64,000 nucleotides of DNA from Qipengyuania vesicularis (GTDB taxonomy: Bacteria; Pseudomonadota; Alphaproteobacteria; Sphingomonadales; Sphingomonadaceae): contig NZ_JAIGNJ010000002.1 of assembly GCF_019711415.1 (NCBI RefSeq), positions 620,001-684,000 on the forward strand, given 5' to 3'. The number at the start of each line of letters is the position of its first letter. Within the stretch, counting starts at the first letter, position 1. Position numbers and translations under genes: made by a program. The notes under the pieces are model-generated. The model was not told the DNA's origin, made no database searches, and saw only the letters and a list, made by a program, of their open reading frames with translations. Of the stretch, positions 28,943-58,927 are shown piece by piece.

Positions 28943-28952
28943 GCGCAGCGCT

Positions 28953-33390: not shown

Positions 33391-33425
33391 GTGTAGGTCC
33401 CCGTCTGTAAAGAGAGTGAGCCGCC

Positions 33426-35092: not shown

Positions 35093-35103
35093 CTCTCGTC
35101 CTC

Positions 35104-39530: not shown

Positions 39531-39600
39531 AATCCCCTCCCGCCCATTGGCGTGTGAATGGGCAAGGAGCTAGCCGAGGAGCGGGTTAGGTGTCAATCAC

Positions 39601-40379: not shown

Positions 40380-40416
40380 GGCGTTGAGCAGCTCCGCACT
40401 CGTCGTGATAAATCCT

Positions 40417-40426
40417 ATACCAATTT
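40417..40426. promoter_or_regulatory. ATACCAATTT half-site upstream of GntR gene
   Basis: A 10-base ATACCAATTT element lies 38 bases upstream of the GntR start codon. It is identical to the element at 43699-43708 and close to those at 39631 and 46961. This suggests autoregulation, though only one half-site is clear here. Confidence 0.45.
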
Positions 40427-40466
40427 CTCTAAGCAGGTTTGCGACGATAATTCCAGACAGCAAGTT

Positions 40467-40500
40467 GGCCGGTGCCACGGGAGAATTGGTGGCACCGGCC
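40467..40500 (-). terminator. Perfect hairpin after the second TonB receptor gene
   Basis: GGCCGGTGCCAC (40467-40478) pairs perfectly with GTGGCACCGGCC (40489-40500) around a 10-base loop. It lies 15 bases after the stop of the receptor gene and before the GntR gene. It probably ends or attenuates receptor transcription; a T-run is weak. Confidence 0.6.
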
Positions 40501-40514
40501 ATAGGCCAGCTGGC

Positions 40515-43604: not shown

Positions 43605-43675
43605 GATTTTCCCCTCCCATATTCCTTGGGAGAGGGGCCTAACAATCATCCGCCACTTTTGTCAACCTAAGTCAA

Positions 43676-43792: not shown

Positions 43793-46700
43793 TCAGAGTT
43801 GGAGCGTAACTCCGAATGTAATCCGTCGGTCGGGCAGGCCTTGGAAGCAAAACAGGCCGCCCTCGTTCACGCACGATTGAGTGATGTCAGACTTAGTGAG
43901 GTTTACGCCCTCAACACCTACAGACAGAAAGTCCGTGACATCATAGGTGACGCTAGCATTCAGCTGCCCACGCGCTTCAGTAACCACCGGGAAACCGAAG
44001 GTACTGTTCAAAGAAGCTCCCCCGGCTGTGTCCAGCGTACGGAAAGCATCGCGCCAGGTGTAGCGGGCACGAGCCGAGATGCCGTACTTCTCATAAAACA
44101 GGGTGACGTTGTAAGAGTGAGGCGAGAAATCGAGCAGACCCTGTACCGACGTGACCGGCACGAAATCCGCATCGTCGTAGATGCCATTGATTGCGTTAAA
44201 TATGTCGGTGCCGCGCGAGGCCGAGGTATTGGATGCTTCGCCGCCTCCAAACTCCTGATAAGTGTAGTTCGCCAAGACACCGAAACCAGAGGCGAATCCG
44301 AGAGTGTCCTCGAACTGCGATAGGTCGTACTGGAAAGCAACTTCGACACCTGTTTGGGTCGTGCTGGCGCTGTCGTTTATGGTCGTCACAATGTCGACGC
44401 AGATTCCGTCGCCAGGTATCGGCGATGAGATGTTTCGGTCTGCGACAGGGTTGAAGATGCCGCCGCCTTCGCATGGCGGGGTGATATCACCAAATCCATT
44501 ACCATCTCGGAATGCCTCCTCAAGCTGCCGCACGAAGAGATTTGTTCGATCCTTATGGAAGAAGGCCACGCTCAGAAGGGCAGAAGGCGCAAAATACCAA
44601 TCGAGCGACGCATCGTAGGATTGGACGGTCTCTGGAGCGAGATTCGGGTTACCAATCGCGACCGACGCCTGCGAACTTGTACCGAAGACGATCGACGTTG
44701 AGAGTGTATTGAAGTCCGGACGATTGATGTCCTCCGTATAGCTCGCCCGGAAAACAAGATCGTCAGTGATGTCGGCGATTACGTTCACGCGAGGCAACCA
44801 CTCAGTATACCCCCCCTTGGTCAGCACCTTTTCCACGTCGGAGCCAGTCACGTTATTGCCGATGGATTCGATGATTGTGTCGACATAGCGTACCCCGACA
44901 TTACCGCGCACCGGGCCGAATTCGAAATTCGCTTGGGCATAGGCCGCCAGGGTTTTCTCTTCGATGTCGTAGAAGCCTGTTAAGCTTGGAGTGGGATCGT
45001 CGATAGTGCGCATGCCAGGGACAGAAGCCAGCGCCGCTCTCAGGATTGCGAGAGTTCCTTCCGGATCGCTGAAAGCCAGATCTGGATCGACCAGGAGGAA
45101 ATCGCCGAAGAACAATGTGCGGCCATCGGCATCGCCATAATTGTCCGGTCCCGGCACCAGGAGTGAAGCAAACTCGGTCCCACGCGGGCTGTCAGCTAGC
45201 GCACTTAAGCCGAGATTTGACCCAATTTCCTGGAAGGTGCTCTTCCGAACATTGAATCGCGCCCCCGCATCGAGTGACGAAAGGAATGATGGGAGCGCGC
45301 CGCCAGCATAGGATAGATCCAACCGGATCGCGTGTTCCGAGTTGTTGGTTTCATCGGCACCAGTCCGTATAGCATCGAGCACCACATTTGCCGGATCCAG
45401 CAACTGCGCGACGGTGGGAGCAAACGGAGAATCGGCATCAATTCCGAATGCCAACCCGTCCCGCAAGTCGTATCGGAAGGGAACTGCGTTGTCGTTCCCT
45501 CCACCGCCGTCAAGAGGCGTATTCGGATTGATGAAGTTCAACGTCGTACTCAATTCCGGGTTGACCGTGTCGGCACTTGTAGTCGAAGCCTCGAAGCGGA
45601 TATCCATGCCGCCCAATTGCCACTCCGCCCCGATACGGTAGAGCTGGCTTTCGGTCAGGCGGGCGCCGGTGTCACTCGAAAAGCGAAGGTTCGGGTCGTC
45701 GTCATCGACTGAGAGGAATGGCTGGATCGTACCCGTCACGGCCGCTTGGATTGACCCCAAATTGACCCCGTCTAGGGAGCCGAAGTCGACCGTCTCGAAA
45801 CTATCGGGAACGTTGTAGTTAAGAACCGAGCTTACACCGGATCCCTGGACGCGCGAGCTGTCTTGCCGACGCTCTTGGTCGTTATAGAACGCGTCGAAAT
45901 AGATCCTCAGATTATCGTTCGGCGCCCATTCCAGCGAGCCCGCGACATTGATGGTGGTGTACTCGAAGTTCTCGAGCTCCTGATTGAGGAATTGAATCCC
46001 GAGGAAATCAAAATCCTGCGCGGCTGGACGACGGGTAGCCTGATCCTCAAGGTTGCCATTCCGGATAACATCAGCATTGATGTTCTCTACAAGGCCGCCA
46101 TCACGGTCCACGCGCGGACGGAATGAGGTGGCTTCCTGCTCCGTGTAGCTGCCAGCAATAACAATGCCGATATCTCCGATGCCGACACTCCAATTGTCGC
46201 CGAAGCTGGCAGCGATGCGAGGCGTGACACTGTCGGAAAGCTCACTGTATTCACCTTGCACCCTCAGCGTCGCCACGCGATCGACTATGTCAAGTGGACG
46301 GATTGTTCGCAGGTTGATGGTGCCACCGACCGAACCTTCGATCGTGTTCGCCTGAGGCGACTTGATTACCTCGACCGACGAGATGATGGCGGCGTTCACA
46401 TCTTCGAAGCTGATACCACCGCGACCCCTGCCCGAACTAACTGTCCCGACACCGTTGATCTCGGTACGGTTGTCGTTGGTTCCGCGAATCTGCACCCCGG
46501 TTCCCACCCCGGCATCCCTCGTAATCTGGATACCGGGAATATTCTCGAGAACTTCCGCGAGATTCTGGTCGGGGAGCTTGCCGATGTCCTCTGCCTGGAT
46601 AACCTCGACGAGACTGTCGGAAAGACGCTCCTCGTTGAGAGCGCTCTGAAGTGCGCTCCTGATGCCGGTGACCACGATCACCTCACCATCGTCAGTGCGG

Positions 46701-46867
46701 TTCACGAAGTCGCCGTCCTCGACCGCGTCGACTGCGCCTTCGTTTTCTTCCACTTCCTGCGCGCTTGCAAATGTCGGAAGGGCCAACACACCCATGGCAG
46801 CCCCCGACATCAGCAGGGTCAGGAGCCGATTGGAGTGTACGCGGTTACGATCAGAATCTTTTGCCAT
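43793..46867 (-). CDS. TonB-dependent receptor, alginate locus (first)
   Basis: The 1024-residue receptor has a signal peptide ending near TFASAQ and a TonB-box-like EVIVVTGIRSAL segment. The plug shows EDIGKLPDQNLAEVLENIPGIQI and GVQIRGTNDNRTEINGV; the barrel ends ITFGVTLQL. This is the TonB receptor class common in sphingomonads and Caulobacter for oligosaccharides. A GGGAGGGAAG ribosome site precedes the ATG at 46867. Upstream lie a TACCAATTTT element and a LacI-type operator at 47027, so it may respond to both local regulators. The exact ligand is inferred from context. Confidence 0.92.
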   Translation of the reverse strand: MAKDSDRNRVHSNRLLTLLMSGAAMGVLALPTFASAQEVEENEGAVDAVEDGDFVNRTDDGEVIVVTGIRSALQSALNEERLSDSLVEVIQAEDIGKLPDQNLAEVLENIPGIQITRDAGVGTGVQIRGTNDNRTEINGVGTVSSGRGRGGISFEDVNAAIISSVEVIKSPQANTIEGSVGGTINLRTIRPLDIVDRVATLRVQGEYSELSDSVTPRIAASFGDNWSVGIGDIGIVIAGSYTEQEATSFRPRVDRDGGLVENINADVIRNGNLEDQATRRPAAQDFDFLGIQFLNQELENFEYTTINVAGSLEWAPNDNLRIYFDAFYNDQERRQDSSRVQGSGVSSVLNYNVPDSFETVDFGSLDGVNLGSIQAAVTGTIQPFLSVDDDDPNLRFSSDTGARLTESQLYRIGAEWQLGGMDIRFEASTTSADTVNPELSTTLNFINPNTPLDGGGGNDNAVPFRYDLRDGLAFGIDADSPFAPTVAQLLDPANVVLDAIRTGADETNNSEHAIRLDLSYAGGALPSFLSSLDAGARFNVRKSTFQEIGSNLGLSALADSPRGTEFASLLVPGPDNYGDADGRTLFFGDFLLVDPDLAFSDPEGTLAILRAALASVPGMRTIDDPTPSLTGFYDIEEKTLAAYAQANFEFGPVRGNVGVRYVDTIIESIGNNVTGSDVEKVLTKGGYTEWLPRVNVIADITDDLVFRASYTEDINRPDFNTLSTSIVFGTSSQASVAIGNPNLAPETVQSYDASLDWYFAPSALLSVAFFHKDRTNLFVRQLEEAFRDGNGFGDITPPCEGGGIFNPVADRNISSPIPGDGICVDIVTTINDSASTTQTGVEVAFQYDLSQFEDTLGFASGFGVLANYTYQEFGGGEASNTSASRGTDIFNAINGIYDDADFVPVTSVQGLLDFSPHSYNVTLFYEKYGISARARYTWRDAFRTLDTAGGASLNSTFGFPVVTEARGQLNASVTYDVTDFLSVGVEGVNLTKSDITQSCVNEGGLFCFQGLPDRRITFGVTLQL

Positions 46868-47174
46868 CTTGTCTTCCCTCCCAAGGAACTTTGAAAGTGT
46901 TGTCCTACTCTAAACCATTTATGTCAACCACTTTGGTTTACCCATTAGTATATTCTGTCCTACCAATTTTGAGGATCATGTAGAGCTTCCGCACATCTCC
47001 GCGCGTCCGCGCACCGCCGATCGAAAGGTAACCGGTGTCATTTTGAGGCGACGAAGGGGCCCAATTGGTGCCATTCCGCGACGATCCTTTCTACATGCGG
47101 CGAACCGGTGGGTCCAATGCCCCGCCCTGGGGTCCAAACCATATCTTGCGCTGCTCGCCTCCATCGGCACCCTC
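46868..47174. other. Intergenic region with GntR-like and LacI-like sites
   Basis: This 307-base stretch contains no convincing gene. It holds TGTCAACCACTTTGGT (46923-46938), nearly the same as a segment at 39591-39606 before PL6, then TACCAATTTT (46961-46970), and the LacI-type operator at 47027-47040. It is the promoter region of the first TonB receptor and the 3' side of the beta-helix protein gene. Confidence 0.55.
47027..47040. promoter_or_regulatory. LacI-type operator near first TonB receptor
   Basis: GGTAACCGGTGTCA, identical to the copy at 48939-48952 and to the reverse complement of the one at 56526-56539. It lies 160 bases upstream of the first alginate-locus TonB receptor and beyond the end of the beta-helix gene, so it may bring that receptor under the LacI regulator. 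Confidence 0.65.
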
Positions 47175-48869
47175 TCACCTTGCTCTGGTTCGTTGCTGCA
47201 ACTGGTAATCGTAGAGCGATGGCGCGCCCTCGACCGGCCTGTTGAGCCATTCGACAAGTGGCTCCGGCCTGTGATCTAGGCGAAGGGGCCGGTTGCCGTG
47301 CATGCCAATAATCCGCGCTTCCGGACCCTCGGAAGCGGCAAGGATTGTTATGGGTCGGCCAGGTGTCACTCCGCCATCAACGAGGACATTGAGATTCCAA
47401 GTAGTGTTGTAGCGGGCATGGCCCGGCAGCCAGTATCCCGCCCCGCCTGCCTTGTAGAGGTCGAACTGCGGCGTTCCGTCATCGGCAACCTGGTCCGGGG
47501 TGAGATGGACCGTAACGTTGTCATAAAGATTTTGGTGGTTTGCGCCCGCATGCTGATCGAGACTGGGCCGCGACCAGACCACGGCATCCTTGTACACCGA
47601 CTTCGTCGCCATCGTGTTGAAACTCAGTGCGTGGATGGTTGGATTATAGACATGCAGGTCTTCGACCAGGACATTATGCACATTGCCGATATGGACGCTG
47701 TAGTGCGCCATATGATCGCCTTTCGTAACGACGTTCGCAATGGTTACGTTGCCGAGGTCGTCGGTCAGTATGCCACTGTCTGAATTGGCGATTGTGACAT
47801 TGCGGATCCAGCCGTCAAACACGCCGGTGAAATAGATACCGTTGTAACCGGCCTCATTATGATGACCGAAGAAGGGGTTCTCAGGAAAGGTGAGTGCAAG
47901 ATCCTGAATCCCGACGTTGGTCAGATGGTCCCAGTGAGCGAAATACGCGGGGACGTCTTCCCTGACCGGATGAAGCAAAGGATCGGAAATCGTCACGAGG
48001 TTTCCGTCGATACGCTCGATCCGCGTCGCTTGCCGGACCAGCGGCCGATCGGGCAATTCCCAATGACGCGACCCGATCTTCTCGTCCGTATCGCCGTACA
48101 TTTCCCTGATCAGCGGACCTTCCGAACCGGCGCGGTTGTGCCAGTGGATCTGGAAGACATCTCCCACCGCAAGCGCGGAGGGATTTGCCACGCGTAATTG
48201 CCTTTCGCCCCGGAGGCCGCTGGTAATCTCGACCACCTTCCGGATCGGTCGATCATGGCTCTCGAGGTAAGTTGCGTGCCGCCCCTCCGGATAGCGCACC
48301 CAGATGAAGCCCCCACTCCAGCTCCATGGTGAAAAGAGCACATCGAGATTGGCATCCTTCTGCCTCTCGCGTTTGTCGTTCTCGACCAGATAGGTGCGCA
48401 ACTCATCAAGGGCGCCGCCATCATCCACCTGGTCAAGTGGGCGCGGCATATAAAGTTCCGTCCCCTTCTCTCCGGCACCCATACCCGACAGCACGATGCC
48501 GCTCCTACTGATCCAGAGAATTTCGCTCACGAGGTAACGTCCGGCATCGAACTGCACCCGGACCGACCCAGTTCGTTCCGACGCCGCTTCGATAGCAGCC
48601 TTGATCGCCTTGGTATCGTCGATTGCATCATCCGGATTTGCGCCAAAATCGCGGACGAGGATTTCCTCCGCGACCTGCGGAATCTCACCTGTTCCCACCC
48701 TGAAGCCGGCGTAAGAGAAGTCTGGCAACCAGTCCGCACCATCTTCCGACGGGTTTTCGAGGATTGGAGGCAACCATTGGGCAGCTGCACTGGCAGGGGC
48801 CGCCATTGCCGCGATTGCAACGACACCGAGCCCCCCTGTTTTCAACGTGTTGGCAAAGCCGCGCGACAT
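47175..48869 (-). CDS. Secreted parallel beta-helix protein, probable polysaccharide lyase of unassigned family
   Basis: This 564-residue protein has a signal peptide (AIAAMAAPASAAAQ) and a pectate-lyase-3-like beginning, ILVRDFGANPDDAIDDTKAI. Repeated beta-helix rungs such as GIVLSGMG, NVTIANSDSGILTDDLGNV and NVLVEDLHVYNP follow. The region around 430-480 is rich in His and Asn (YSVHIGNVHN, SLDQHAGANHQN). The fold is clear, but it does not show the PL6 NGGET motif and I cannot assign a known CAZy family; PL31-like alginate/glucuronan lyases are one comparison to make. The ATG at 48869 follows a GGGAGAGG site. It is divergent from a TonB receptor, with two LacI operators between them. A lyase releasing unsaturated uronate fits the downstream isomerase and dehydrogenase genes. 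Confidence 0.75.
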   Translation of the reverse strand: MSRGFANTLKTGGLGVVAIAAMAAPASAAAQWLPPILENPSEDGADWLPDFSYAGFRVGTGEIPQVAEEILVRDFGANPDDAIDDTKAIKAAIEAASERTGSVRVQFDAGRYLVSEILWISRSGIVLSGMGAGEKGTELYMPRPLDQVDDGGALDELRTYLVENDKRERQKDANLDVLFSPWSWSGGFIWVRYPEGRHATYLESHDRPIRKVVEITSGLRGERQLRVANPSALAVGDVFQIHWHNRAGSEGPLIREMYGDTDEKIGSRHWELPDRPLVRQATRIERIDGNLVTISDPLLHPVREDVPAYFAHWDHLTNVGIQDLALTFPENPFFGHHNEAGYNGIYFTGVFDGWIRNVTIANSDSGILTDDLGNVTIANVVTKGDHMAHYSVHIGNVHNVLVEDLHVYNPTIHALSFNTMATKSVYKDAVVWSRPSLDQHAGANHQNLYDNVTVHLTPDQVADDGTPQFDLYKAGGAGYWLPGHARYNTTWNLNVLVDGGVTPGRPITILAASEGPEARIIGMHGNRPLRLDHRPEPLVEWLNRPVEGAPSLYDYQLQQRTRAR

Positions 48870-48916
48870 ATTAGCCTCTCCCAAGCGTCTCTCGCAAATT
48901 GGTTATTGACGCGCAA

Positions 48917-48930
48917 TGGCACCGGTGTCA
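48917..48930. promoter_or_regulatory. LacI-type operator A, divergent promoter region
   Basis: TGGCACCGGTGTCA is a near-perfect palindrome centred on the central CG, a typical LacI-family site. It lies between the beta-helix gene and the TonB receptor gene and so can control both directions. Its centre is 22 bases from operator B. Confidence 0.75.
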
Positions 48931-48938
48931 ATAAATAA

Positions 48939-48952
48939 GGTAACCGGTGTCA
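48939..48952. promoter_or_regulatory. LacI-type operator B, divergent promoter region
   Basis: GGTAACCGGTGTCA shares the ACCGGTGTCA core with operator A. The 22-base centre-to-centre distance is about two helical turns, so two regulator dimers could bind the same face of the DNA. Confidence 0.75.
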
Positions 48953-49008
48953 ATTAGGCACCAATGTCGCGCAACGACGCAACGACCAATTGGGGAGGGA
49001 GACACCCG

Positions 49009-51876
49009 ATGTTCATTTCCGCCAAGGGCCAGCCGTGTGCATTCGGCAACCGCAAGCTGCTACTGAAATATGCCCTGCTTGCCTCTGCCATGCTTGCGAC
49101 CCCATCGATCGCATCTGCGCAGGCTGCACCTCCGGACGACGATTCCGATGTCGTCGAGGAAACACGGCAGGACGACACGACAATCGTGGTCCGCGGCGAA
49201 ATTGCGCGCACAATCGAGAACTCGCTGGAAACAAAGCGCCAGCTCGACGTCATCGGCGACGCAATCGTTGGTGAGGATGTCGGCGACCTGCCCGACCTTT
49301 CGGTAGCGGAAACACTCGAGCGCATTGTTGGCGTCACGTCCGACCGCTTCAAGGGCGGTGCTTCCGAGCTCTCGGTTCGCGGGCTTGGGGCCTTCCTTGG
49401 CTCGTCCGTACTCAATGGGCGCGAGGTTTCGTCGGGCAGTGACGGAAGAGACGTAAATTATGGCCAGTTCCCCAGCGAACTGATCAATGGTGCGATCATC
49501 TACAAGTCTCAGCAGGCCAGCTTCATCGAAGGCGGTGTCTCGGGTATTATCGAATTGCAAACCTTGCGCCCCATCGATTACGGCAAACAGCGACTACAGG
49601 TGCAAGGGCTGGTCGGCTACAGCCCCTACCAGGACCGGGTGGTCGGCAGCGGCGGGCTGAACACCCGCCTGACGGCCTCCTATATCGACCAGTTCGAACT
49701 CGGCGACGGCGAGTTCGGGATCGCTATTGGCGGACAAATCCGCAACGACAATGCGCCTGAGGATATCTACACGTCGAGTTCCACCTACCGCCCGTGCAAC
49801 ACGATTGAGGGGCTGGGTCAGAGCAATAACTGCGACTTCGAATTCGACGATTCTGGCAATCCCACAGGTGCAGCCGGCGCGGATTTCTACTTTGTATCCA
49901 ACCAGTACATTTACCGCGCTCAGGCTACCGATGCCGATCGCGACGCAATCATGGGGGCAATCCAGTGGCAGCCCTCACCCAGCCTCGATATCAATGTCGA
50001 CGCCCAGTATTCTTACCGCGACGACATTGAAGAGCGCGCCAACCTGGTGATTGCGGACGGTCGCCGAGATATCGTGCCGCTTGAAGTCTCAGACACCGGC
50101 GCGTTGCTCTATTGGAGCGGTGAGACCCGCCTCGAAAACCAAACTGTGTGGCGCCAACGGACAGAAGAATACCTAGGCCTGGGCGGCAATGTCGCATGGA
50201 CCAACGGCCGCTTTGTCTTGACGGCCGACGCGGGGTATTCCGAAACGAAACGCCGCCAAGACGAAAAGGACATGCGTATTCGCACCAGCGATCGGGTGCT
50301 CTACGAACTCGACAAGCGCGGATACGACATCCCCAACCTTATCCTGACCGATGTCTCTGACGTCGAAGACGATACAGGTCTGGCGTTCGATCTCGACAAT
50401 CATGATCTCTACGACAATGGAGCGCGGGCTCGCCGACGCCTCGAAAACGTCGACGACAGCATCCTCGCATTCCGCCTCGACGGCCTTTACGAGATGGATG
50501 GGTTCTTCAACTCCTTTCAGGCCGGTGTGCGTTGGGCTGAGCGCAAACGCTTCCACGATGACGGGATCGATGAGACCGTCGGCCTTGTGAATGGTTACGA
50601 CAGTCCGGAAGCAATCGCTGCGCGCCGTGGAAATTTCCTGGTACGCGATCTTTACGCCGGCTCGAACGGCCCGATGCGAGGTCTCACTTTCGCAGCATGG
50701 AATGCCGAGGAACTATTTGCGGCCTTAACCGGCAGCGACGATGCGGGCTTGCCCACAGGGTCTACCCTATCGCCACAAGACACCGACGTGACCGAAGAGA
50801 CTTGGGCCGGCTACGTCCAAGCCAACTTCGACTCCGAAATGTTTGGAGTTCCGGCCCGCGGAAATCTCGGATTGCGTGCAATTCGGACCGAGATCACTTC
50901 GGTCGGGATCAGCAGCGCGGTTCAGACGTCTCCCGGTTCCGAACCGGGCACGGTGGTCGTGACCCCGATTGGCGATCCCATCGTTAACACGGAAACCAAC
51001 GATTTCTGGAACTTCCTGCCAAGCGGCAACCTCATTCTCGAAGTCAATCCGGACATGCTGCTGCGCCTTGCCGCATATCGTGCCATTGCAAGGCCCGACC
51101 AGGAGGCAATGTCGGCCGCGCTCACGTTCAGCGATGACGATTTCGAGGACGTAGGGCGGGCGATTACGGCGACTGGCAACCCATTCCTCGAGCCATTGGA
51201 GTCGTGGAATGGCGATATATCGTTCGAATGGTACGCCTCGCCTACGACGTCGCTCGCAGTCGCGGGCTACTACAAGAGCTTGCAAACCGGGTTCGAGACC
51301 GACGTAACAGGGCTGAGCCTGCTGGTAGACGGTGTTGCGACACCGGTGACGATAGCCCGCACTGTCAACTCCGATGACAAGAGCGACCTCTATGGTTTCG
51401 AAGTAACTGTGCAGCACAAGTTCGACTTCGGATTAGGATTCCTCGCCAGCTACAATTGGGCTGATTCGAACTTCGAGTTCCCCGATCCGACCACGGTCCC
51501 AATCCGCATCGATGGTTCTGCCGGTGAGGTGCCGCTGGCAAACTATGTCCAGCCGGCGAATATCCCTGGCTATTCGAAGCACAGCCTCAATGGCACGGTG
51601 TTCTTTGAGACTGGCCCCTTCTCGGCCCGCCTCGCGTACAAGTGGCGTTCGGAGTACTTCAAGCCGTTCCGCAGCGATGCGAACCGCTATACCGAAGATC
51701 AGGGTTTCCTGGACTTCTCTGCCAGCATGGACCTGATGGACGGTATCCAGCTGCGTTTCCAGGCACTGAATATCCTCGATGAACCAAACGTATTCTATCG
51801 GCCGACACCCGACAGTCTGGCCCAGGCAGACTATTCCGGCGCGCGATACTTCATCGGTGTCCGGGGCAGGTTCTGA
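49009..51876 (+). CDS. TonB-dependent receptor of the second uronate locus
   Basis: The 955-residue receptor has a signal peptide ending near ATPSIASAQ, a plug domain with DLPDLSVAETLERIVG and ELSVRGLGAFLGSSVLNGR, and a C-terminal barrel ending YFIGVRGRF. The ATG at 49009 is chosen because GGGGAGGGAGA lies about 9 bases upstream and the signal peptide starts there; the frame runs back to 48964. It is a paralogue of the alginate receptor at 40515-43604 (shared FPSEL, IEGGVSG, RPIDYGK). It leads an operon with the hydratase and TRAP genes and should import the oligosaccharide product of this locus. Confidence 0.93.
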   Translation: MFISAKGQPCAFGNRKLLLKYALLASAMLATPSIASAQAAPPDDDSDVVEETRQDDTTIVVRGEIARTIENSLETKRQLDVIGDAIVGEDVGDLPDLSVAETLERIVGVTSDRFKGGASELSVRGLGAFLGSSVLNGREVSSGSDGRDVNYGQFPSELINGAIIYKSQQASFIEGGVSGIIELQTLRPIDYGKQRLQVQGLVGYSPYQDRVVGSGGLNTRLTASYIDQFELGDGEFGIAIGGQIRNDNAPEDIYTSSSTYRPCNTIEGLGQSNNCDFEFDDSGNPTGAAGADFYFVSNQYIYRAQATDADRDAIMGAIQWQPSPSLDINVDAQYSYRDDIEERANLVIADGRRDIVPLEVSDTGALLYWSGETRLENQTVWRQRTEEYLGLGGNVAWTNGRFVLTADAGYSETKRRQDEKDMRIRTSDRVLYELDKRGYDIPNLILTDVSDVEDDTGLAFDLDNHDLYDNGARARRRLENVDDSILAFRLDGLYEMDGFFNSFQAGVRWAERKRFHDDGIDETVGLVNGYDSPEAIAARRGNFLVRDLYAGSNGPMRGLTFAAWNAEELFAALTGSDDAGLPTGSTLSPQDTDVTEETWAGYVQANFDSEMFGVPARGNLGLRAIRTEITSVGISSAVQTSPGSEPGTVVVTPIGDPIVNTETNDFWNFLPSGNLILEVNPDMLLRLAAYRAIARPDQEAMSAALTFSDDDFEDVGRAITATGNPFLEPLESWNGDISFEWYASPTTSLAVAGYYKSLQTGFETDVTGLSLLVDGVATPVTIARTVNSDDKSDLYGFEVTVQHKFDFGLGFLASYNWADSNFEFPDPTTVPIRIDGSAGEVPLANYVQPANIPGYSKHSLNGTVFFETGPFSARLAYKWRSEYFKPFRSDANRYTEDQGFLDFSASMDLMDGIQLRFQALNILDEPNVFYRPTPDSLAQADYSGARYFIGVRGRF

Positions 51877-51898
51877 AACCCCTCGTGGGAGCGGGGCG

Positions 51899-52678
51899 AT
51901 GAGACGCGAAGGATCGATCCTCCCGGCTGAGGCACGAGACGTCTCGGCCATCCTGGTCCGGGCAAGGCTGGCAGCTTCAGCCCTGCCCGGACCTCCCCCT
52001 GGATTGCCTGATGATCTCGGTACCGCTTACGGCATCCAGCACCATTCGATCGACCGCTGGCCCGACGCCGTGGCGGGCTGGAAGGTTGGGGGCGTTCCGT
52101 CCGACTATGTCGAGCGCTTCAATGAGACGAGGCTGGCTGGTCCGATCTTCAGTCAGACGGTCGTTCACGCAACGGAATCGTGCACGGCCAGCATGCCGGT
52201 ATTTGCGGGCGGGTTCGCAGCGATCGAACCTGAGTTCGTCTTGCGGCTTGGCCGGACAAGAGACGAAGACCGTCTGTATATCGGGGCGGAAATCGCCAGC
52301 AGCCCGATCCCATCCATCAACGATTACGGTCCGATCGCTGTCATTTCCGACTTCGGCAACAACAACGGCTTGCTGGTCGGACCGGAGATCGAGGGGTGGC
52401 GAAAGGAGCGCCAACCCGTCACGGTCGTTTGCGAAATCGATGGCGAGCAAATTGCGTCACGCGACATTCCGGTTCTGGGTGAGAATGTCGAAGCAGCGAG
52501 GGAATTTCTTTCTGCGCTTTCCGACAACCTGAGTTTCGACCTTCCCGAGGGCAGCCTCGTCTCATCGGGTGCAATCACTGGTGTCCACGAAGCCCAAATT
52601 GGCGCCCGTTCGAAACTCGACTTCGGCAGGTTCGGGGTATTGCATCTCGAACTGACGGAAGCGAAACCCTTGGTATGA
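51899..52678 (+). CDS. 2-keto-4-pentenoate hydratase/FAH-family enzyme
   Basis: This 259-residue protein belongs to the MhpD/fumarylacetoacetate hydrolase superfamily, metal-dependent enzymes acting on 2-oxo acids or their enols. Landmarks are GWKVGG near residue 60, the acidic metal segment AAIEPEFVLRLG near 110 and LVSSGAITGVHEA near the C terminus. The ATG at 51899 lies 22 bases after the receptor stop, after a GGGAGCGGGG stretch. It overlaps the TRAP binding-protein gene by 4 bases. In a uronate locus without its own KdgF it may process an unsaturated or enol uronate, but this is a hypothesis; the substrate is unknown. Confidence 0.82.
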   Translation: MRREGSILPAEARDVSAILVRARLAASALPGPPPGLPDDLGTAYGIQHHSIDRWPDAVAGWKVGGVPSDYVERFNETRLAGPIFSQTVVHATESCTASMPVFAGGFAAIEPEFVLRLGRTRDEDRLYIGAEIASSPIPSINDYGPIAVISDFGNNNGLLVGPEIEGWRKERQPVTVVCEIDGEQIASRDIPVLGENVEAAREFLSALSDNLSFDLPEGSLVSSGAITGVHEAQIGARSKLDFGRFGVLHLELTEAKPLV

Positions 52679-53685
52679 ACGACCTCCTCGCCTCGCTGCA
52701 GGTATCCCGTCGCACCATCTTGGCGGGGGGTGCGGCTGCACTGGCAGCAGGGTGTTCACGCGGGCTGGGCCCCGGAGTACTGACCGCAACCGACACGCAC
52801 GTAAACGACTATCCGACCGTGCAGGCGGTCATCCGGTTCGGCAAAATGCTGGAACGGGCGACTAGCGGCAGGCTCTCTCTGCGCATGTATCCTGGCGGAC
52901 AACTGGGCAACGAACGCGACACGCTGGAAATCACCACCTTCGGGGGGCTGGATTTCAACCGTGTAAACCTTGCCCCGCTCAATTCAATCGAGCCGCTGAC
53001 GACCGTAGCGGCGCTGCCATTCCTGTTCACCTCGATCGAGCACATGCGCAGCACCCTCGATGGTCCGATCGGCGACGAGATCCTCGCCTCGCTCGAACCG
53101 CATGGGCTCATCGGCCTGTGCTTCTACGACTCCGGTGCGCGCAGCTTCTATAACACACGCGGTCCCATCAGGACCCCCGACGATATGCGCGGGCTCAAAT
53201 TGCGTGTTCCGGGATCGGATCTCTACATTGCCATGGTCCAGTCACTTGGTGCCGATGCCGTTCCCATGCCGCTCGACGAGGTCTACCAGAGCCTCGCCCA
53301 AGGCGTGATCGACGGGGCGGAAAACAACTGGCCCAGCTTCGAGAGCGGGCGACACTTCGAGGTCGCGCGTTTTTACAGCCTGACACGTCATTTGCTCGCG
53401 CCGGAAGTCTTCGTCATGTCGAAGCGCCGCTGGGACACCCTGTCCGCCGACGATCAGTCGTTGATCCGTCGCTCGGCCAAGCAGAGCGTGCCGTATATGC
53501 GCGAGCTGTGGGATGACCAGGTCGAGAAGAGCAAGGCCATCATCATGAATTCCGGCGTCGAGGTAAACGAGATCGACCCGGCACCCTTTGCCGAGCGGAT
53601 GCGCGGGGTGTGGGACGAATTCCTGACCACGCCCGAGCAACGCGACCTAGCGAGGCGCATCGTGGAAGTGGGAGAACCATCCTGA
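52675..53685 (+). CDS. TRAP transporter substrate-binding protein (DctP family), lipoprotein
   Basis: The 336-residue binding protein starts with a twin-arginine-like SRRTILAGG (Arg12, Arg13) and a lipobox LAAGC with Cys27, so it is probably a lipoprotein. DctP features include YPGGQLGNERD, SFYNTRGPIRTPDDMRGLKLRVP, with the Arg that binds the substrate carboxylate, and GVIDGAENNWPSF. Many DctP proteins of this type bind hexuronates. It overlaps the hydratase gene by ATGA and the DctQ gene by TGATG, so the operon is tightly coupled. Confidence 0.93.
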   Translation: MNDLLASLQVSRRTILAGGAAALAAGCSRGLGPGVLTATDTHVNDYPTVQAVIRFGKMLERATSGRLSLRMYPGGQLGNERDTLEITTFGGLDFNRVNLAPLNSIEPLTTVAALPFLFTSIEHMRSTLDGPIGDEILASLEPHGLIGLCFYDSGARSFYNTRGPIRTPDDMRGLKLRVPGSDLYIAMVQSLGADAVPMPLDEVYQSLAQGVIDGAENNWPSFESGRHFEVARFYSLTRHLLAPEVFVMSKRRWDTLSADDQSLIRRSAKQSVPYMRELWDDQVEKSKAIIMNSGVEVNEIDPAPFAERMRGVWDEFLTTPEQRDLARRIVEVGEPS

Positions 53686-54140
53686 TGGACAGGCTTGCAA
53701 GCGCGTGCGTCAAAATTGGCGCGCTGGGGCTGATGCTCATGACCCTTATCGTGGGTTGGCAGGTGTTCGGACGCTTCATCCTACAGAGCAGTCCTTCGTG
53801 GTCGGAACAGGCTGCGCTCATCCTGATGATCTGGTATGTCTTCCTCGCTGCGGGCACAGGCGTGTGGGAGCGCTTCCACATCCGGATAGAAATTCTCGAA
53901 CAGCGCCTCGAAGCCGGCAGCCGCAAGCGCCTGAGGATCGCCATCCACGCACTCATCGCAGCAATGGGACTGATCCTTCTCGTGTTCGGGGTGCAATTGG
54001 TATGGCTCGTGAGCGAGCATGTTATCCCCTCGCTGGGGATCAGCCGGGCCTTCGCCTACCTGCCCATCCCCGCCACCGGCGCTCTCATCACGCTATTCTC
54101 GCTGGGCCGTATCCGCGTGCGTCTGGCGGAGACAGACTGA
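53685..54140 (+). CDS. TRAP transporter small membrane subunit (DctQ)
   Basis: This 151-residue protein has four transmembrane helices, as is usual for DctQ, with the family segments WQVFGRFILQSSPSWSEQAA and WYVFLAAGTGVWERFHI. It pairs with DctM and DctP to drive sodium-coupled uptake of an organic acid across the inner membrane. The ATG at 53685 overlaps the DctP stop by one base (TGATG); the open frame upstream lies inside DctP. It overlaps DctM in the same way. Confidence 0.93.
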   Translation: MDRLASACVKIGALGLMLMTLIVGWQVFGRFILQSSPSWSEQAALILMIWYVFLAAGTGVWERFHIRIEILEQRLEAGSRKRLRIAIHALIAAMGLILLVFGVQLVWLVSEHVIPSLGISRAFAYLPIPATGALITLFSLGRIRVRLAETD

Positions 54141-55417
54141 TGGAGATATTCGTTCTCTTCGGCACATTGTTCGTGCTTCTCGCGCTTGGAGTGCCGGTAG
54201 CATTCGCCTTGTTCGGCGCGGCGCTAGCCACTTTCGCGGTTATCGATATCCCCCTCATCGTAGCGGTCCAGCGCATGGCCGCGGGCATCAGCGTTTTCAC
54301 CCTGATGGCGATCCCGTTCTTCATCTTCGCCGGCGACCTTATGTATCGTGCCGGAATTGCGGAGCGGCTTGTCCGGGTGGCCGACGCTGCCCTTGGCCGG
54401 GTGCGGGGCGGCCTGGGCCTTGTCAATGTCGGCGCAAGCATGATGTTCGGTGCGGTCTCCGGCTCAGCGATTGCCAGCGCCTCCGCCATCGGATCGGCCA
54501 TGGTGCCCTTGATGGACGAAAAGGGATACGACCGAGACTATTCGGTCAATGTCACGGTGACCGCTGCCATAGTCGGTCTCCTGATCCCGCCGTCACACAA
54601 CATGATCATCTATGCCGCCGCATCGGGTATCGGCGTTTCCATCGGTGACCTGTTCCTGGCCGGAGTGATCCCGGGCATCCTCACCGGTGGCCTGCTGATG
54701 CTGACCGCATGGGTGGTGGCGCGCAAACGCAACCTGCCCAAGGGCACTTTCCCCGGCTGGCGCAGCTTCTTGCGAGCGGCGCTTTATGCCGTGCCCGGGC
54801 TGATGACCGGCGTAATCATCATGGGCGGCATCCTGTCGGGTATTTTCACGCCAACCGAAAGCTCGGCGATTGCCGTGCTGTACACCATCGTCATCGGAAC
54901 GCTGGTCTATCGAAACCTCGGGCTGGAAGGAACGTGGGAAGCAGCGCAGAAATCGGTCCGAACGGCGGCCATGGTACTCTTCGTGATCGCCGCGGCCACG
55001 GCATTCGGCTTTGCGCTTGCCCTGCTCGAAGTACCTGCTGCGCTCGCCAGCCTGATCGGCGTCATGACAGACAATCCGCTGCTGACCCTGCTCATTATCA
55101 ACGTAATGCTGCTTTTGCTCGGCACGTTCATGGACATGGCTCCCCTCATTGTCATCACCACGCCAATCTTCCTGCCCGTAGCAATGGCGAGCGGCGTGGA
55201 TCCGGTCCATTTCGGCATTATCCTCATGCTGAACCTGGGCATCGGGCTGGTCACGCCGCCGGTCGGCTCCGTGCTGTTCGTCGGCTCCGCGGTGGGCAAG
55301 ATATCGATCGCCGAAATGGTCCGCAGCATCTGGCCGTTCTATCTCACGCTCATCGCTGCGCTGGCCGTTATAAGCTTCGTCCCCACCCTTTCCCTGTGGC
55401 TTCCGGGAGCCTTTTAG
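54140..55417 (+). CDS. TRAP transporter large membrane subunit (DctM)
   Basis: The 425-residue permease has about 12 hydrophobic helices and the DctM signatures IPFFIFAGDLMYRAG, GAVSGSAIASASAIGS and IGLVTPPVGSVLFVGSAVG. It forms the transport channel of the TRAP system. The ATG at 54140 overlaps the DctQ stop (TGATG). It ends 45 bases before the LacI regulator gene. Together with the uronate-type binding protein, it probably imports the unsaturated monomer or oligomer produced by the beta-helix protein. Confidence 0.95.
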   Translation: MEIFVLFGTLFVLLALGVPVAFALFGAALATFAVIDIPLIVAVQRMAAGISVFTLMAIPFFIFAGDLMYRAGIAERLVRVADAALGRVRGGLGLVNVGASMMFGAVSGSAIASASAIGSAMVPLMDEKGYDRDYSVNVTVTAAIVGLLIPPSHNMIIYAAASGIGVSIGDLFLAGVIPGILTGGLLMLTAWVVARKRNLPKGTFPGWRSFLRAALYAVPGLMTGVIIMGGILSGIFTPTESSAIAVLYTIVIGTLVYRNLGLEGTWEAAQKSVRTAAMVLFVIAAATAFGFALALLEVPAALASLIGVMTDNPLLTLLIINVMLLLLGTFMDMAPLIVITTPIFLPVAMASGVDPVHFGIILMLNLGIGLVTPPVGSVLFVGSAVGKISIAEMVRSIWPFYLTLIAALAVISFVPTLSLWLPGAF

Positions 55418-55462
55418 TCCCGGGGTACTTGGCCAGCGCCGTTCATTTAAATATGGGAAGCT

Positions 55463-56482
55463 ATGGCCAGCGACAGCAAACCGACGATCAATGACGTGGC
55501 GCGCATCGCCGAGGTTTCCAAGAAGACCGTAAGCCGCGTCATCAACAAGTCGCCACTGCTGAGCGAGAAAACACGCAAACGCGTCGAAAATGTCATCGCC
55601 GACATCGGATATGTGCCCAATCCGCAGGCACGCGCACTGGCATTGCGGCGCAACTTCGTGATCGCTGCCATTCACGATAATCCGAATGCCCAGTTCCTCG
55701 TAAACGTGCAGCAGGGTGTACTCGACGGTCTGGCGGGCAGCGATTTCAACCTGATGGTCAAGCCGGTGGATCGCAAATCCCCAAACATAACGGAGGACAT
55801 TCGGGACTTCCTCGAGCGACAGCGGCCCTATGGCGTAGTCCTGCTTCCCCCGATATCCGAGAACGACGAGATCGCCCGCCTGTGCGACGATCTGGGCTGT
55901 CGGTACGTAAGGATGGGTTCGGTAAAGCTTGATGAAGCCGAACATACCGTCAGTTCCAACGATCGCGAAGCAGTCCGAGAGGCGGTCAGCTACCTAATCA
56001 AAAAGGGCCATCGGCGGATTGCCCTGATCGAAGGACCGAGCGGATTTACCTCACCCCAAGAACGCCGGGCCGGCTTCGAGGAGGCGATGGCAGCAGCCGG
56101 ACTGGAAGTGGACGAAGCCCTGGTACGTCCTGGCAGCTATACCTTCGAATCGGGTGTGTCTGCGGGACAGGCCCTGGTGGAGCTCGAAAATCGTCCAACC
56201 GCCATCTTTGCCTGCAATGACGAAATGGCTATCGGAGCGATGATCGCCGCACGCCGAAGCGGCCTCCTCATCCCCGAGGACGTTTCTATCGTGGGCTTCG
56301 ACGACACGCCCTTGTCGAGCCATGTCTGGCCTTCGCTGACCACGGTACGTTGGCCGATTGTCGACATGGCACGCACTGCGGCCAAGAAGCTGATCTCACC
56401 GGAGGATGCGGAAGCCAATGCGACCTGGCTGCTTCCCTCGGCCTTGATCGAGCGGTCGTCGGTCGTCCCACCAACCGTCTGA
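55463..56482 (+). CDS. LacI-family transcriptional regulator of the second uronate locus
   Basis: This 339-residue LacI/PurR-type repressor has an N-terminal helix-turn-helix at about 8-42 (TINDVARIAEVSKKTVSRVI) and a periplasmic-binding-protein-like sensor domain (FACNDEMAIGAM, SIVGFDDTPLSSHVWPSLTTV). It lies between the TRAP genes and the isomerase gene. Palindromes with an ACCGGTGTCA or TGACACCGGT core are found between the beta-helix and receptor genes, before the isomerase gene and upstream of the first TonB receptor. They are very likely its operators. The inducer is probably a uronate catabolic intermediate. Confidence 0.93.
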   Translation: MASDSKPTINDVARIAEVSKKTVSRVINKSPLLSEKTRKRVENVIADIGYVPNPQARALALRRNFVIAAIHDNPNAQFLVNVQQGVLDGLAGSDFNLMVKPVDRKSPNITEDIRDFLERQRPYGVVLLPPISENDEIARLCDDLGCRYVRMGSVKLDEAEHTVSSNDREAVREAVSYLIKKGHRRIALIEGPSGFTSPQERRAGFEEAMAAAGLEVDEALVRPGSYTFESGVSAGQALVELENRPTAIFACNDEMAIGAMIAARRSGLLIPEDVSIVGFDDTPLSSHVWPSLTTVRWPIVDMARTAAKKLISPEDAEANATWLLPSALIERSSVVPPTV

Positions 56483-56525
56483 AACCGACTGGACCTGAGC
56501 ATCGAATATCGCTTGCACCTCTTTA

Positions 56526-56539
56526 TGACACCGGTTACC
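56526..56539. promoter_or_regulatory. LacI-type operator upstream of the isomerase gene
   Basis: TGACACCGGTTACC is the reverse complement of the operators at 47027 and 48939. It lies 55 bases upstream of the isomerase ATG and 44 bases after the LacI stop, so it controls the isomerase-dehydrogenase-kinase operon. Confidence 0.75.
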
Positions 56540-56593
56540 TAAATGTACGAAGAGCGAGCCTTCCGGCCACGCGGGACAAGAAAGCGAGCACCA

Positions 56594-57226
56594 ATGAAAA
56601 TTGCCCTTATCAATGAGAACAGCCAGGCCGCGAAGAATTGCATCGTCCACGATGCCCTGACGGCCGTCGTCGAACCGCTGGGGCATGAAGTGCATAATTA
56701 CGGCATGTATGCCGCCGACGACGAGGCGCAGCTGACATATCCGATGGTGGGCCTGCTCACCGGCATCCTTCTCAATTCGGGGGCTGCCGATTTCGTCGTT
56801 ACAGGTTGCGGTACGGGGACGGGTTCGATGCTTGCCTCGAACGCCATGCCGGGCGTGTTCTGCGGTCTGGTAATCGATCCGACCGACGCGTTCCTGTTTG
56901 CCCAGATCAACGACGGAAACGCAGTTGCCATGCCCTATGCCAAGGGCTTCGGATGGGCTGCGGAACTCAATCTGCAGGACTGCTATCGCAAGTTGTTCGA
57001 GGGTGAAAGCGGCGTCGGATATCCCAAGGAGCGCGCCGCGATCATGAAGAAGAACCGCGGCGTCCTGGCCGATTTGAAGGCCAAGACCTGCCACGACATG
57101 CTGACCGTCCTGAAGACCGTAGATCAGGACCTGCTCAAAAGCGCGATTGCCGGGGAAAAGTTCTCCGAACTATTCTATGCCAATTCGAAGGACGAGGCGA
57201 TCAGCGAATATCTTCGCGGTCTGTAA
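56594..57226 (+). CDS. RpiB/LacAB-family sugar isomerase, probable DhuI-type ketol-isomerase
   Basis: The 210-residue protein has the RpiB/LacA/LacB fold signature CGTGTGSMLASNAMPG, with Cys72 as the likely catalytic base, and a longer C terminus (about 60 residues) than ribose-5-phosphate isomerase B. In streptococcal hyaluronan catabolism an RpiB-type enzyme (DhuI) isomerises 4-deoxy-L-threo-5-hexosulose uronate. The gene here is directly followed by a KduD-type dehydrogenase and KdgK, so the same step is expected. The ATG at 56594 (MKIALINENS) fits the family; the frame continues upstream without homology. A LacI operator precedes it. Confidence 0.85.
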   Translation: MKIALINENSQAAKNCIVHDALTAVVEPLGHEVHNYGMYAADDEAQLTYPMVGLLTGILLNSGAADFVVTGCGTGTGSMLASNAMPGVFCGLVIDPTDAFLFAQINDGNAVAMPYAKGFGWAAELNLQDCYRKLFEGESGVGYPKERAAIMKKNRGVLADLKAKTCHDMLTVLKTVDQDLLKSAIAGEKFSELFYANSKDEAISEYLRGL

Positions 57227-57250
57227 CACAAGCCGCAGGGAGGTAAGGCG

Positions 57251-58024
57251 ATGAGCGGGAATCCATTCGACCTTTCGGGCAGAGTTGCGCTCGTGACTGG
57301 CGCGAACACGGGCATCGGCCAAGGGATTGCCGTTGCGCTCGCCAGGGCAGGTGCCGACGTCGCCCTTGTCGCGCGGCGTGATCCGGCCGAGACCCGCAAA
57401 TTGGTCGAAGCGGAAGGTCGCAAGGCCCTTGTCATAATGGCTGACTTTTCGTCGATCGAGCCGTGCGAGCGAATAGTCGGCGAATGCGTCGCCGAACTCG
57501 GGCGTCTCGACATCCTCGTCAACAATGCCGGCATCATCCGCCGCGAGGATGCGCTGGAATTCTCGGAAGAGGATTGGGACGCAGTGATGGATGTGAACCT
57601 GAAGGTTCTCTTTTTCCTGAGCCAGGCCGCGGCTAGGCATATGATCGGGTGGACCTCGCAAGACCGGCGTCGCGGCAAGATCGTCAACATTGCGAGCATG
57701 CTGACCTTTCAGGGCGGGATTCGCGTGCCGAGCTATACCGCCTCCAAAAGCGGCGTAGGTGGCCTAACAAAGCTGATGGCCAATGAGTGGGCAGCCAAGG
57801 GCATCAATGTGAACGCTATTGCCCCCGGCTACATCGCGACCAACAACACTGCCGCGCTCCAGGCGGACGAAACGCGCAATCGCCAGATACTGGAGCGTAT
57901 CCCTGAAGGGCGCTGGGGTGATCCGGCCGACATTGGCGGTGCCGCCGTATTCCTTTCTAGCAGCGCCTCCGATTATGTGCAGGGCCATATCCTCGCCGTT
58001 GATGGCGGGTGGCTGGCACGGTAG
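57251..58024 (+). CDS. kduD: KduD-type 2-dehydro-3-deoxy-D-gluconate 5-dehydrogenase (SDR)
   Basis: KduD reduces 3-deoxy-D-glycero-2,5-hexodiulosonate, the isomerase product, to KDG. The 257-residue classical SDR shows VTGANTGIGQG at 15-25, NNAG at 91-94, Ser149 and YTASK with Tyr162 and Lys166. The C-terminal VDGGWLAR is typical for KduD and DhuD proteins. A GGGAGGT ribosome site precedes the ATG and the gene lies 24 bases after the isomerase stop. It differs clearly from the DEH reductase of the alginate locus. Confidence 0.88.
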   Translation: MSGNPFDLSGRVALVTGANTGIGQGIAVALARAGADVALVARRDPAETRKLVEAEGRKALVIMADFSSIEPCERIVGECVAELGRLDILVNNAGIIRREDALEFSEEDWDAVMDVNLKVLFFLSQAAARHMIGWTSQDRRRGKIVNIASMLTFQGGIRVPSYTASKSGVGGLTKLMANEWAAKGINVNAIAPGYIATNNTAALQADETRNRQILERIPEGRWGDPADIGGAAVFLSSSASDYVQGHILAVDGGWLAR

Positions 58025-58042
58025 CCCGACGGACCACTTGCG

Positions 58043-58927
58043 GTGACCGTCTTCATCTTCGGCGAGGCCATGCTGGAATACCACAGCAAGGGCAGTACTG
58101 GCCTGCGCTATGGCGGCGATACGCTGAACACCGCTATTCACCTCGCCCGCGCGGGCCACGAAGTCGCTTATGTGACAGCTGTCGGGACCGATCCAATAAG
58201 CGATGCGCTGGTCGCATCATGGGCCGCCGAAGGCATCGACACACGCTTCGTCCTGCGCCATCCGACCCGCAACCCCGGCATCTACGCCATCCATCTCGAC
58301 GAGCATGGCGAGCGAAGCTTTCTCTACTGGCGCGACCGAAGCGCCGCGCGGGAAATGTTTGCCTTGGAAGGAATGGCAGAGGCTTTGTCTGCGGCCATGG
58401 ACGCGAGCTTGCTCTACTTCAGCCTCATTACCCTAGCCGTAGTAGGTGATGAGGGGCGCGATCGCTTGCTCGGCTTGGCTGCCAGAAGGCGCGAGGCCGG
58501 GAGCCCGGTCGCCTATGACAGCAATTTTCGCCCTGCCCTCTGGAACAGCCTCGCAGACGCACAAGACGCATCGAGACATGCAGTAGAAACATGTTCGATC
58601 GGGTTGCCGACCAATACGGACGAGCGGGAGCTTTGGGACACCTCTGAGTCCGACGCCGATATCGTACGGAAATGGGCAGACAATGGGCGACTGATAGCCC
58701 TTAAAGCGGCAGATAAGGGGTGCCTGCTCATGCAAGGCCAGCGAGCCGAACCGGATTTGCTACCCGCGACAAAGATCGAGGTGATCGACACCAGCGGAGC
58801 CGGCGATGCGTTCAATGCCGGGTTCCTTTCAGCATACCTACTTGGAGAGTGCCCGCTGAAATGCGCGGAATCCGGCCAAAATCTGGCGCGAAGGGTAATC
58901 GGGCAGATGGGTGCCATTCCGTCTTAA
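58043..58927 (+). CDS. kdgK: 2-keto-3-deoxygluconate kinase (PfkB family), second uronate locus
   Basis: The 294-residue kinase phosphorylates KDG to KDPG. It begins with GTG at 58043 (TVFIFGEAMLEYH after the start), 18 bases after the kduD stop, and has RYGGDTLNTAIHLAR, YWRDRSAAREMF and DTSGAGDAFNAGF. It is a close paralogue of the kinase at 31719-32606; long blocks of the N-terminal half are identical. Each uronate locus thus carries its own copy. No aldolase follows, so KDPG must be cleaved by an Eda encoded elsewhere. Confidence 0.93.
   Translation: MTVFIFGEAMLEYHSKGSTGLRYGGDTLNTAIHLARAGHEVAYVTAVGTDPISDALVASWAAEGIDTRFVLRHPTRNPGIYAIHLDEHGERSFLYWRDRSAAREMFALEGMAEALSAAMDASLLYFSLITLAVVGDEGRDRLLGLAARRREAGSPVAYDSNFRPALWNSLADAQDASRHAVETCSIGLPTNTDERELWDTSESDADIVRKWADNGRLIALKAADKGCLLMQGQRAEPDLLPATKIEVIDTSGAGDAFNAGFLSAYLLGECPLKCAESGQNLARRVIGQMGAIPS

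Follow-up and report, generated by a model that had tools for sequence, protein, structure and literature searches.

What does a bacterium eat with a gene locus that encodes a pathway from unsaturated uronates to 2-keto-3-deoxy-6-phosphogluconate (KDPG), in a genome with no GH88 or GH105 enzyme, and how would its monomers be released and opened? The question is raised by a LacI-controlled locus of Qipengyuania vesicularis, located in a stretch of 64,000 nt of contig NZ_JAIGNJ010000002.1 (hereafter the window; the whole genome is 2,714,485 bases), the genes of which were re-read using open reading frame listing and family scans (Pfam, NCBIfam). The best explanation that we can offer, and a tentative one, is that LacI controls a set of genes for the use of a beta-linked glucuronate polymer, the likeliest being beta-1,4-glucuronan or oligomers derived from it, with a secreted parallel beta-helix protein (BH) as the proposed lyase and an MhpD/NahK-superfamily enzyme (HYD) as the proposed unsaturated-uronate hydratase.

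Genome organization of the uronate locus

The ten-gene block spans 47175–58927, with BH (47175–48869) on the minus strand and nine genes transcribed divergently from it on the plus strand. In order, these encode a TonB-dependent receptor (TBDT, 48964–51876; TIGR01782, 499 bits with a cut-off of 310), HYD (51899–52678), the TRAP transporter proteins DctP (solute-binding protein, 52675–53685; PF03480), DctQ (small permease, 53682–54140; PF04290) and DctM (large permease, 54137–55417; PF06808, TIGR00786), a LacI-family regulator (55463–56482; PF00356, PF13377), a DhuI-type 4-deoxy-5-keto-uronate isomerase (56594–57226; PF12408, PF02502), KduD (2-dehydro-3-deoxy-D-gluconate 5-dehydrogenase, 57251–58024), and a KdgK-like PfkB kinase (58043–58927; PF00294). 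This is the gene set named in an earlier note on this DNA, and each gene has family support, that of HYD coming from structure-profile matches; the tight overlaps noted there are of four bases, read off the coordinates, at HYD–DctP, DctP–DctQ, and DctQ–DctM. Frame reading corrects three starts, to 48869 for BH, 51899 for HYD, and 56594 for the isomerase. The nearest solved chains to DctP are 4n8y, 4ovr, 4mij, and 4x8r, presumably glucuronate or galacturonate binders.

The action of the isomerase, KduD, and KdgK on an unsaturated uronate, as proposed earlier, is well supported by their families. The isomerase has an RpiB/LacAB fold with a DUF3666 tail, scores above the cut-off of NF006753, and matches solved structures 3c5y and 4u8e, the latter (which we take to be DhuI, a streptococcal protein) at 271 bits over residues 3–211. 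KduD is above the TIGR01832 cut-off (404.9 bits vs 338.85), and the best match of the kinase is NF052444 (KdgK; 1.1e-70), where its 238 bits fall short of the 400-bit cut-off. Together these families very probably provide a uronate-to-KDPG pathway.

BH is a divergent relative of PL29

BH has a signal peptide without a lipobox (read by eye) and matches PF12708 only near its N-terminus. An assignment to the conventional pectate lyases or to GH28 was rejected, the Pfam and solved-structure matches being mainly to this N-terminal signature. The NCBIfam model NF058554, which represents the BT3328 (PL29) family and names it an endo-lyase, matches BH at 2.4e-14 (52.5 bits, with a cut-off of 1100), and matches the BH proteins of loci L133 (residues 47–560, 7.6e-30) and L121 (two stretches, 8.4e-34) of the survey described below; these two relatives score 104 and 117 bits against the same cut-off.

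A closer comparison is provided by locus L137 of Reichenbachiella agariperforans, where a DUF4955 PL29-like protein (NF058554 8.5e-65, 219 of 1100 bits) is encoded in tandem with BH. BLASTP aligns BH with this protein at 26% over 574 columns (E 2e-23; about 26–29% identity), and HHalign aligns the BH profile with it over 484 columns (99.95%, E 8.3e-38), so that the two have a homologous beta-helix domain. Of 73 columns invariant in 33 BH proteins, 40 are identical in this one PL29-like sequence, on which the column comparison rests, and the columns common to both include H335, H336, N342, H388, H412, D437, H439, and H483. A strong whole-domain alignment, yet a score far under the PL29 cut-off, suggests that BH is a divergent relative and not a member, that is, PL29-superfamily kin outside of the family: the whole beta-helix domain can be aligned with the PL29-like protein and the His-rich invariant columns are common to both, but the identity and score are low and the gene partners are different. 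This kinship supports the earlier description of the beta-helix protein as a lyase, and it is likely, judging from sequence, that BH acts as a lyase on glucuronate bonds. We note that the tandem of L137 (7311–11626), in which a PL29-like gene with a secretion tail adjoins BH, forms a natural pair for a comparison of specificity. The PL29 founder, BT3328 of Bacteroides thetaiotaomicron, is described as a surface lyase that acts on chondroitin sulfate and hyaluronan and requires chains of eight or more sugars (PMC6994673).

Distribution and gene neighborhoods of BH

BH was surveyed in 396 genomes of the order Sphingomonadales, from which stretches were fetched (G loci), and in 80 named loci kept from 266 BH relatives in a scan of species genomes, whose hosts are Erythrobacteraceae, Caulobacterales-type bacteria, gammaproteobacteria, and Bacteroidota. 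The two sets are not independent, since at least 13 of the 80 coincide with a G locus. Gene order in relatives was read by tblastn with reference proteins that all come from the window or its order, such that distant partner homologues may be missed in the 80-locus counts and partners in Bacteroidota, above all, are under-counted.

BH is matched in 40 of the order genomes, ten of them weakly (best E 3e-9 to 6e-4, short matches) and excluded from the strong set of 30. All 30 strong genomes have both HYD and a DhuI- or KduI-family match, with HYD also present in 83 of the 366 other genomes, and 12 of the 30 have UxaC. In 25 of 29 fetched G loci HYD and BH are no more than 10 kb apart; in G056 the two genes are far from each other. 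The alpha- and gammaproteobacterial form of the locus consists of BH, a receptor, HYD, TRAP, LacI, DhuI or KduI, and KduD, though many loci lack some of these parts; in the named set of 80, the partners are KduD (52), an isomerase (47), HYD (45), LacI (40), and DctM (32), and more rarely a PF05426 lyase (14), rhamnose genes (7), and GH105 (5). In the two PF05426 neighbors compared (L054 and L136), the nearest solved chains are 3nfv and 8bdq (the latter presumably B. ovatus BoPL38), and these neighbors are PL38-like; a PL5-type assignment was dropped for this reason.

HYD travels with the uronate isomerases

No Pfam family is listed for HYD up to an E of 10 (HMMER filters drop most matches above 0.1). 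A profile of 28 HYD proteins matches the NahK and MhpD structures (5d2i, 2wqt, and 1sv6) with E values of 1e-12 to 3e-11, in agreement with the 'hydratase-family' label of the earlier note, and the invariant residues E111, E113, and E132, which we take to be metal ligands, align as a Glu-x-Glu and a further Glu with those of MhpD/NahK, placing HYD in this superfamily; its AlphaFold2 model has a mean pLDDT of 95.4. HYD thus resembles the 2-keto-4-pentenoate hydratases and 4-oxalocrotonate decarboxylases (MhpD/NahK) in profile and in its Glu residues, but is remote from them in sequence and sits in uronate gene clusters.

The order genomes with HYD number 113, with PF12408 (DhuI) 57, with PF04962 (KduI) 69, and with UxaC 106. 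A DhuI- or KduI-family match, which had escaped notice before as a companion of HYD, is present in 108 of the 113 HYD genomes and in 11 of the 283 without HYD, and HYD is correspondingly present in 108 of the 119 genomes with an isomerase-family match; these co-occurrences are counted per genome, and the Fisher tests treat related genomes as independent. PF04962 covers IolB as well; in G141, G159, G271, and G285, four of the 11 genomes with an isomerase match but no HYD, the matches below 1e-104 are probably IolB. In genus g1 (at least 24 genomes listed) the same four genomes hold HYD and an isomerase, with UxaC in three, two of them shared, and in genus g4 the same five genomes hold both, with UxaC in seven, three of them shared. 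This exact overlap indicates that within these two genera HYD follows the isomerases and not UxaC.

HYD loci without BH (L187–L206, 20 of 83, mostly the best-scoring and not a random draw) have KduI or DhuI in 15 cases and, with a KduI of L203 placed by its coordinates, in 16 of 20 within 10 kb. HYD often adjoins an MFS or TRAP transporter there. UxaC is found in 7 of the 20 stretches and a homologue of a PelZ-like protein in 11, and with these two genes the BH-less loci look like pectin/galacturonate clusters. A further comparison comes from two loci of similar order: L105 (21.7 kb) has no HYD or LacI match and contains a KdgF cupin, and L129 has HYD and LacI.

HYD travels with an isomerase and an importer, which fits a step between them, the ring opening of the unsaturated monomer, and on these sequence relationships HYD may well be a ring-opening hydratase of unsaturated uronates, a reading that we hold as somewhat short of probable. 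In proposed reaction and pathway position it would resemble KdgF, the cupin that linearizes unsaturated uronates, but HYD belongs to the MhpD/NahK superfamily and not to the cupins. To our knowledge, the last steps of uronate use are considered complete with KduI or DhuI, KduD, and KdgK, and the ring is taken to open spontaneously or through KdgF. A published survey reports KdgF in fewer than half of the strains, in all cluster types but E, and infers non-enzymatic opening; it also describes a dhuI-kduD pair limited to Sphingomonadaceae and Erythrobacteraceae (PMC12838403). That pair corresponds to the isomerase and reductase genes here, adjacent and in the same bacterial families, but ring opening is taken there to be non-enzymatic for most strains, and the accessible portions of the paper mention no MhpD-type gene, BH, or LacI operator (PMC12838403).

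LacI operators and the extent of the regulon

Four LacI-type operators are present between genes: GGTAACCGGTGTCA at 47027–47040, upstream of a second TonB-dependent receptor (TBDT43), TGGCACCGGTGTCA at 48917–48930 and a second copy of GGTAACCGGTGTCA at 48939–48952, both in the gap between BH and TBDT, and TGACACCGGTTACC at 56526–56539, upstream of the isomerase. The palindrome TGACACCGGTGTCA with up to three mismatches has six matches in the window, with 2.09 expected and one of 100 shuffles reaching six; two are intragenic (45661 and 51338) and the other four are the intergenic operators. A narrower pattern, KGNNACCGGTGTCA, matches four times in the entire genome, at exactly the four intergenic sites, and not at all when reversed, a count that speaks to specificity and not to discovery because the pattern was shaped on the window's own sites. 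This bears out the shared operators reported earlier, and in this genome the narrower pattern is confined to the locus. Both tandem operators between BH and TBDT are conserved within an otherwise drifting spacer in an alignment of the window with nine relatives.

In the relatives, operators with up to two mismatches were counted when no more than 300 bp from a gene of the locus. They are present in 32 of the 40 named BH loci with LacI and in 9 of the 40 lacking a LacI match; for the G loci the counts are 20 of 23 with a LacI match and all 6 of those lacking one. The five control palindromes scored only 0 or 1. With up to one mismatch the operator is found in 10 of the 20 HYD loci without BH, where control palindromes gave 0, and with operators in BH-less loci as well this family of regulators probably governs uronate use in general.

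TBDT43 (43793–46867, minus strand; TIGR01782) has its operator 160 bp upstream, which suggests that it belongs to the LacI regulon, and its homologues adjoin BH or HYD in relatives (e.g. L043, L084, L106, L107, and L109, by tblastn synteny). It is probably part of the locus and co-regulated with it; the block described in the earlier note is present, but its extent was drawn too small, the receptor under the same operator having been overlooked. The locus can thus be viewed as a predicted jointly regulated LacI regulon that includes two TonB receptors.

Proposed pathway and substrate

Genome-wide searches found no match to PF07470 (GH88/GH105), PF02614 (UxaC), or PF03786 (UxuA), and two sulfatase matches, one over the cut-off and one below, both outside of the locus. 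Within the locus, family scans gave no gene for rhamnose or amino-sugar use. The lack of sulfatase, GH88, and GH105 genes noted earlier for the locus thus extends, for GH88 and GH105, to the entire genome, and strengthens the corollary that a lyase must free monomers itself.

From the observed genes, families, operators, co-occurrences, and absent genes we infer a scheme of enzyme activities, substrate, exo mode, and inducer. The two TonB receptors would bring in polymer fragments, which secreted BH would split by beta-elimination, acting from the ends, down to 4,5-unsaturated glucuronate, and the TRAP system would take up this monomer. HYD would hydrate the C4=C5 bond, its metal binding the carboxylate and the oxygen of the ring, and the ring would open to 5-keto-4-deoxyuronate, as with the unrelated KdgF; DhuI would then isomerize the product, KduD reduce it to 2-keto-3-deoxygluconate (KDG), and the kinase yield KDPG. 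The L-threo product that DhuI and KduI convert is derived from glucuronate or galacturonate. When an exo-lyase degrades a homopolymer, each residue ends up as unsaturated monomer and neither GH88 nor GH105 is needed. Of the substrates suggested earlier, glucuronan fits best and is our leading candidate, though we would not yet call it the probable one; ulvan or a glycosaminoglycan-like polymer is a poor fit for this strain, since GH88 or GH105 is required for their disaccharides. In 2016 an exolytic glucuronan lyase obtained by engineering was described as the first of its kind (PMC4765187).

Several observations weigh against this reading. For HYD, the contrast between the isomerases and UxaC is weakened over the whole order, UxaC being present in 80 of the 113 HYD genomes and 26 of the 283 others; eight of the 47 named BH loci with an isomerase have no HYD (KdgF is in one of the eight), and six of the 45 with HYD have no isomerase match. 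At least five of the 20 BH-less HYD loci (L189, L192, L194, L202, and L203) encode a secreted cupin weakly similar to KdgF, and the Q. vesicularis genome already has KdgF, in its alginate cluster (34742–35068; 49% identity to a Flavobacterium cupin). For BH, the NF058554 score is far below the family cut-off, and the reported substrates of the PL29 founder are chondroitin sulfate and hyaluronan (PMC6994673). The only PF05426 match in the genome is the PL17 enzyme of the alginate cluster, so that the first cuts in the polymer would fall to BH or to a PL17 of broad specificity; PL38 glucuronan lyases (CUL-I, TpPL38A), whose relatives accompany BH in some loci, have no counterpart here. PL17 does include a glucuronan lyase (PMC5966431), and the neighboring PL17 may help on the polymer. 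Among relatives, all eight named loci with PF05426 outside of the alphaproteobacterial type (L133, L134, L136, L143, L145, L148, L149, and L150) have a GH88-like gene, and four G loci (L034–L037) hold BH and HYD inside an ulvan-type locus. The Flavobacteriaceae locus L136, where BH neighbors UxaC, UxuA, an SDR, GH2, a GH88-like protein, and a PL38-like lyase, suggests a heteropolymer or saturated glucuronate as the substrate there.

Some of these loci have additional features. The small secreted cupins of L189 (5336–5740) and L192 (3339–3716) are beside PelZ-like pectate lyase homologues. The GH88-like protein of L136 (13844–15016) matches PF07470 at only 7e-11 and has near full-length copies with 50–85% identity in eight other loci; it is a companion of BH in several loci of the Bacteroidota type. 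L133 also has a PL7-type (PF08787) gene.

Alternative explanations

Best placed among the alternatives, though unlikely in our estimate, is that the lyase activity of BH is directed at an alternating polymer (ulvan, a hyaluronan- or chondroitin-like chain, or another glucuronate heteropolymer), of which the strain uses the releasable part or scavenges the pieces of its neighbors. The activity reported for the PL29 founder agrees with this (PMC6994673), as does the presence of BH, in relatives, in ulvan-type loci that also hold genes for a sulfatase, GH3, GH105, and rhamnose use. The Pfam matches of L034 include a sulfatase, GH3, PF07470, an FGGY kinase, an aldolase-SDR fusion, and a xylose-isomerase-like protein, the last three of which we read as putative rhamnose genes; each of L034–L037 has a homologue of the PF07470 protein, and a BNR_4 homologue is in the 20-kb flanks of all four genomes. 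In Q. vesicularis, however, the genome lacks GH88 and GH105, so that the unsaturated disaccharides left from an alternating polymer could not be used, and the locus lacks genes for rhamnose or amino sugars. Moreover, in six alphaproteobacterial named loci (L083, L096, L098, L100, L102, and L128) BH is accompanied by a PF05426 lyase but by no GH105 or GH88-like match.

It is improbable that BH instead frees saturated glucuronate, by hydrolysis or otherwise, with HYD as a glucuronate dehydratase that makes 5-keto-4-deoxyuronate, a new entry to the Kdu route. L136, with UxaC, UxuA, and a UxuB-like SDR, and L134 and L138, similar by eye, point this way, as do the absence of UxaC and UxuA from the window's genome and the solute-binding proteins nearest to DctP, presumably glucuronate or galacturonate binders. 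Set against these are the kinship of BH with lyases and the behavior of HYD within genera, where it tracks the isomerases (in g4, UxaC is in seven genomes and HYD in five, with three shared).

Still less probable is that BH is an oligosaccharide dehydratase similar to P29_PDnc or BcGDH, converting a saturated terminal glucuronate to an unsaturated one. Such enzymes exist in ulvan and chondroitin loci (PMC8511951, PMC12269599), and BH is present in ulvan-type loci, but the published dehydratases, as far as these two sources describe them, pass their product to GH88 or GH105, which this genome lacks; the single invariant lysine of BH (K165) is a weak further argument against it.

Least probable of all is a second alginate module, since the adjoining alginate cluster, which together with PL6/PL17 matches near 8 of the 80 named loci and L052 brings it to mind, has its own SDR, kinase, and KdgF, and DhuI and KduI serve the L-threo product and not alginate's L-erythro product.

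Adjoining gene clusters

The alginate cluster (29854–43649) contains genes for a symporter, a PfkB kinase (31719–32648), an SDR, an MFS transporter, the KdgF-like cupin, PL17, PL6, GntR, and a TonB receptor. A galactoside-type cluster at 18328–29861 contains GH42, GH36, galactokinase, a Gfo/Idh/MocA oxidoreductase, and an aldo-keto reductase, with a TauD-family dioxygenase at its end. Long open frames without Pfam matches are present at 6791–8719, 13258–14808, and 20127–21341, some of which may be non-genes.

Implications

The uronate-to-KDPG pathway itself is known; what appears new is a divergent branch of proposed lyases, represented by BH, and probably a new helper enzyme, HYD. In the literature searched, in which subscription journals are thinly covered, BH is not reported as an enzyme of glucuronan breakdown and no MhpD-type gene is described for this pathway, and among the matches listed for literature linking 2-keto-4-pentenoate hydratase with KduI and KduD the hydratase name is unused. 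A combined and more speculative reading, to which we give a minor but real chance, is that HYD is a new MhpD-superfamily unsaturated-uronate hydratase that replaces KdgF across the Sphingomonadales, in pectin and glucuronate-polymer pathways alike, and that BH founds a new lyase family freeing monomers from glucuronan without GH88 or GH105. The presence of HYD in nearly all genomes of the order with an isomerase match makes the completeness of the known uronate pathway directly testable. If the reading is correct, a monomer-freeing glucuronate lyase would be useful for green-seaweed cell walls, and would explain how bacteria with small genomes use such walls with few genes.

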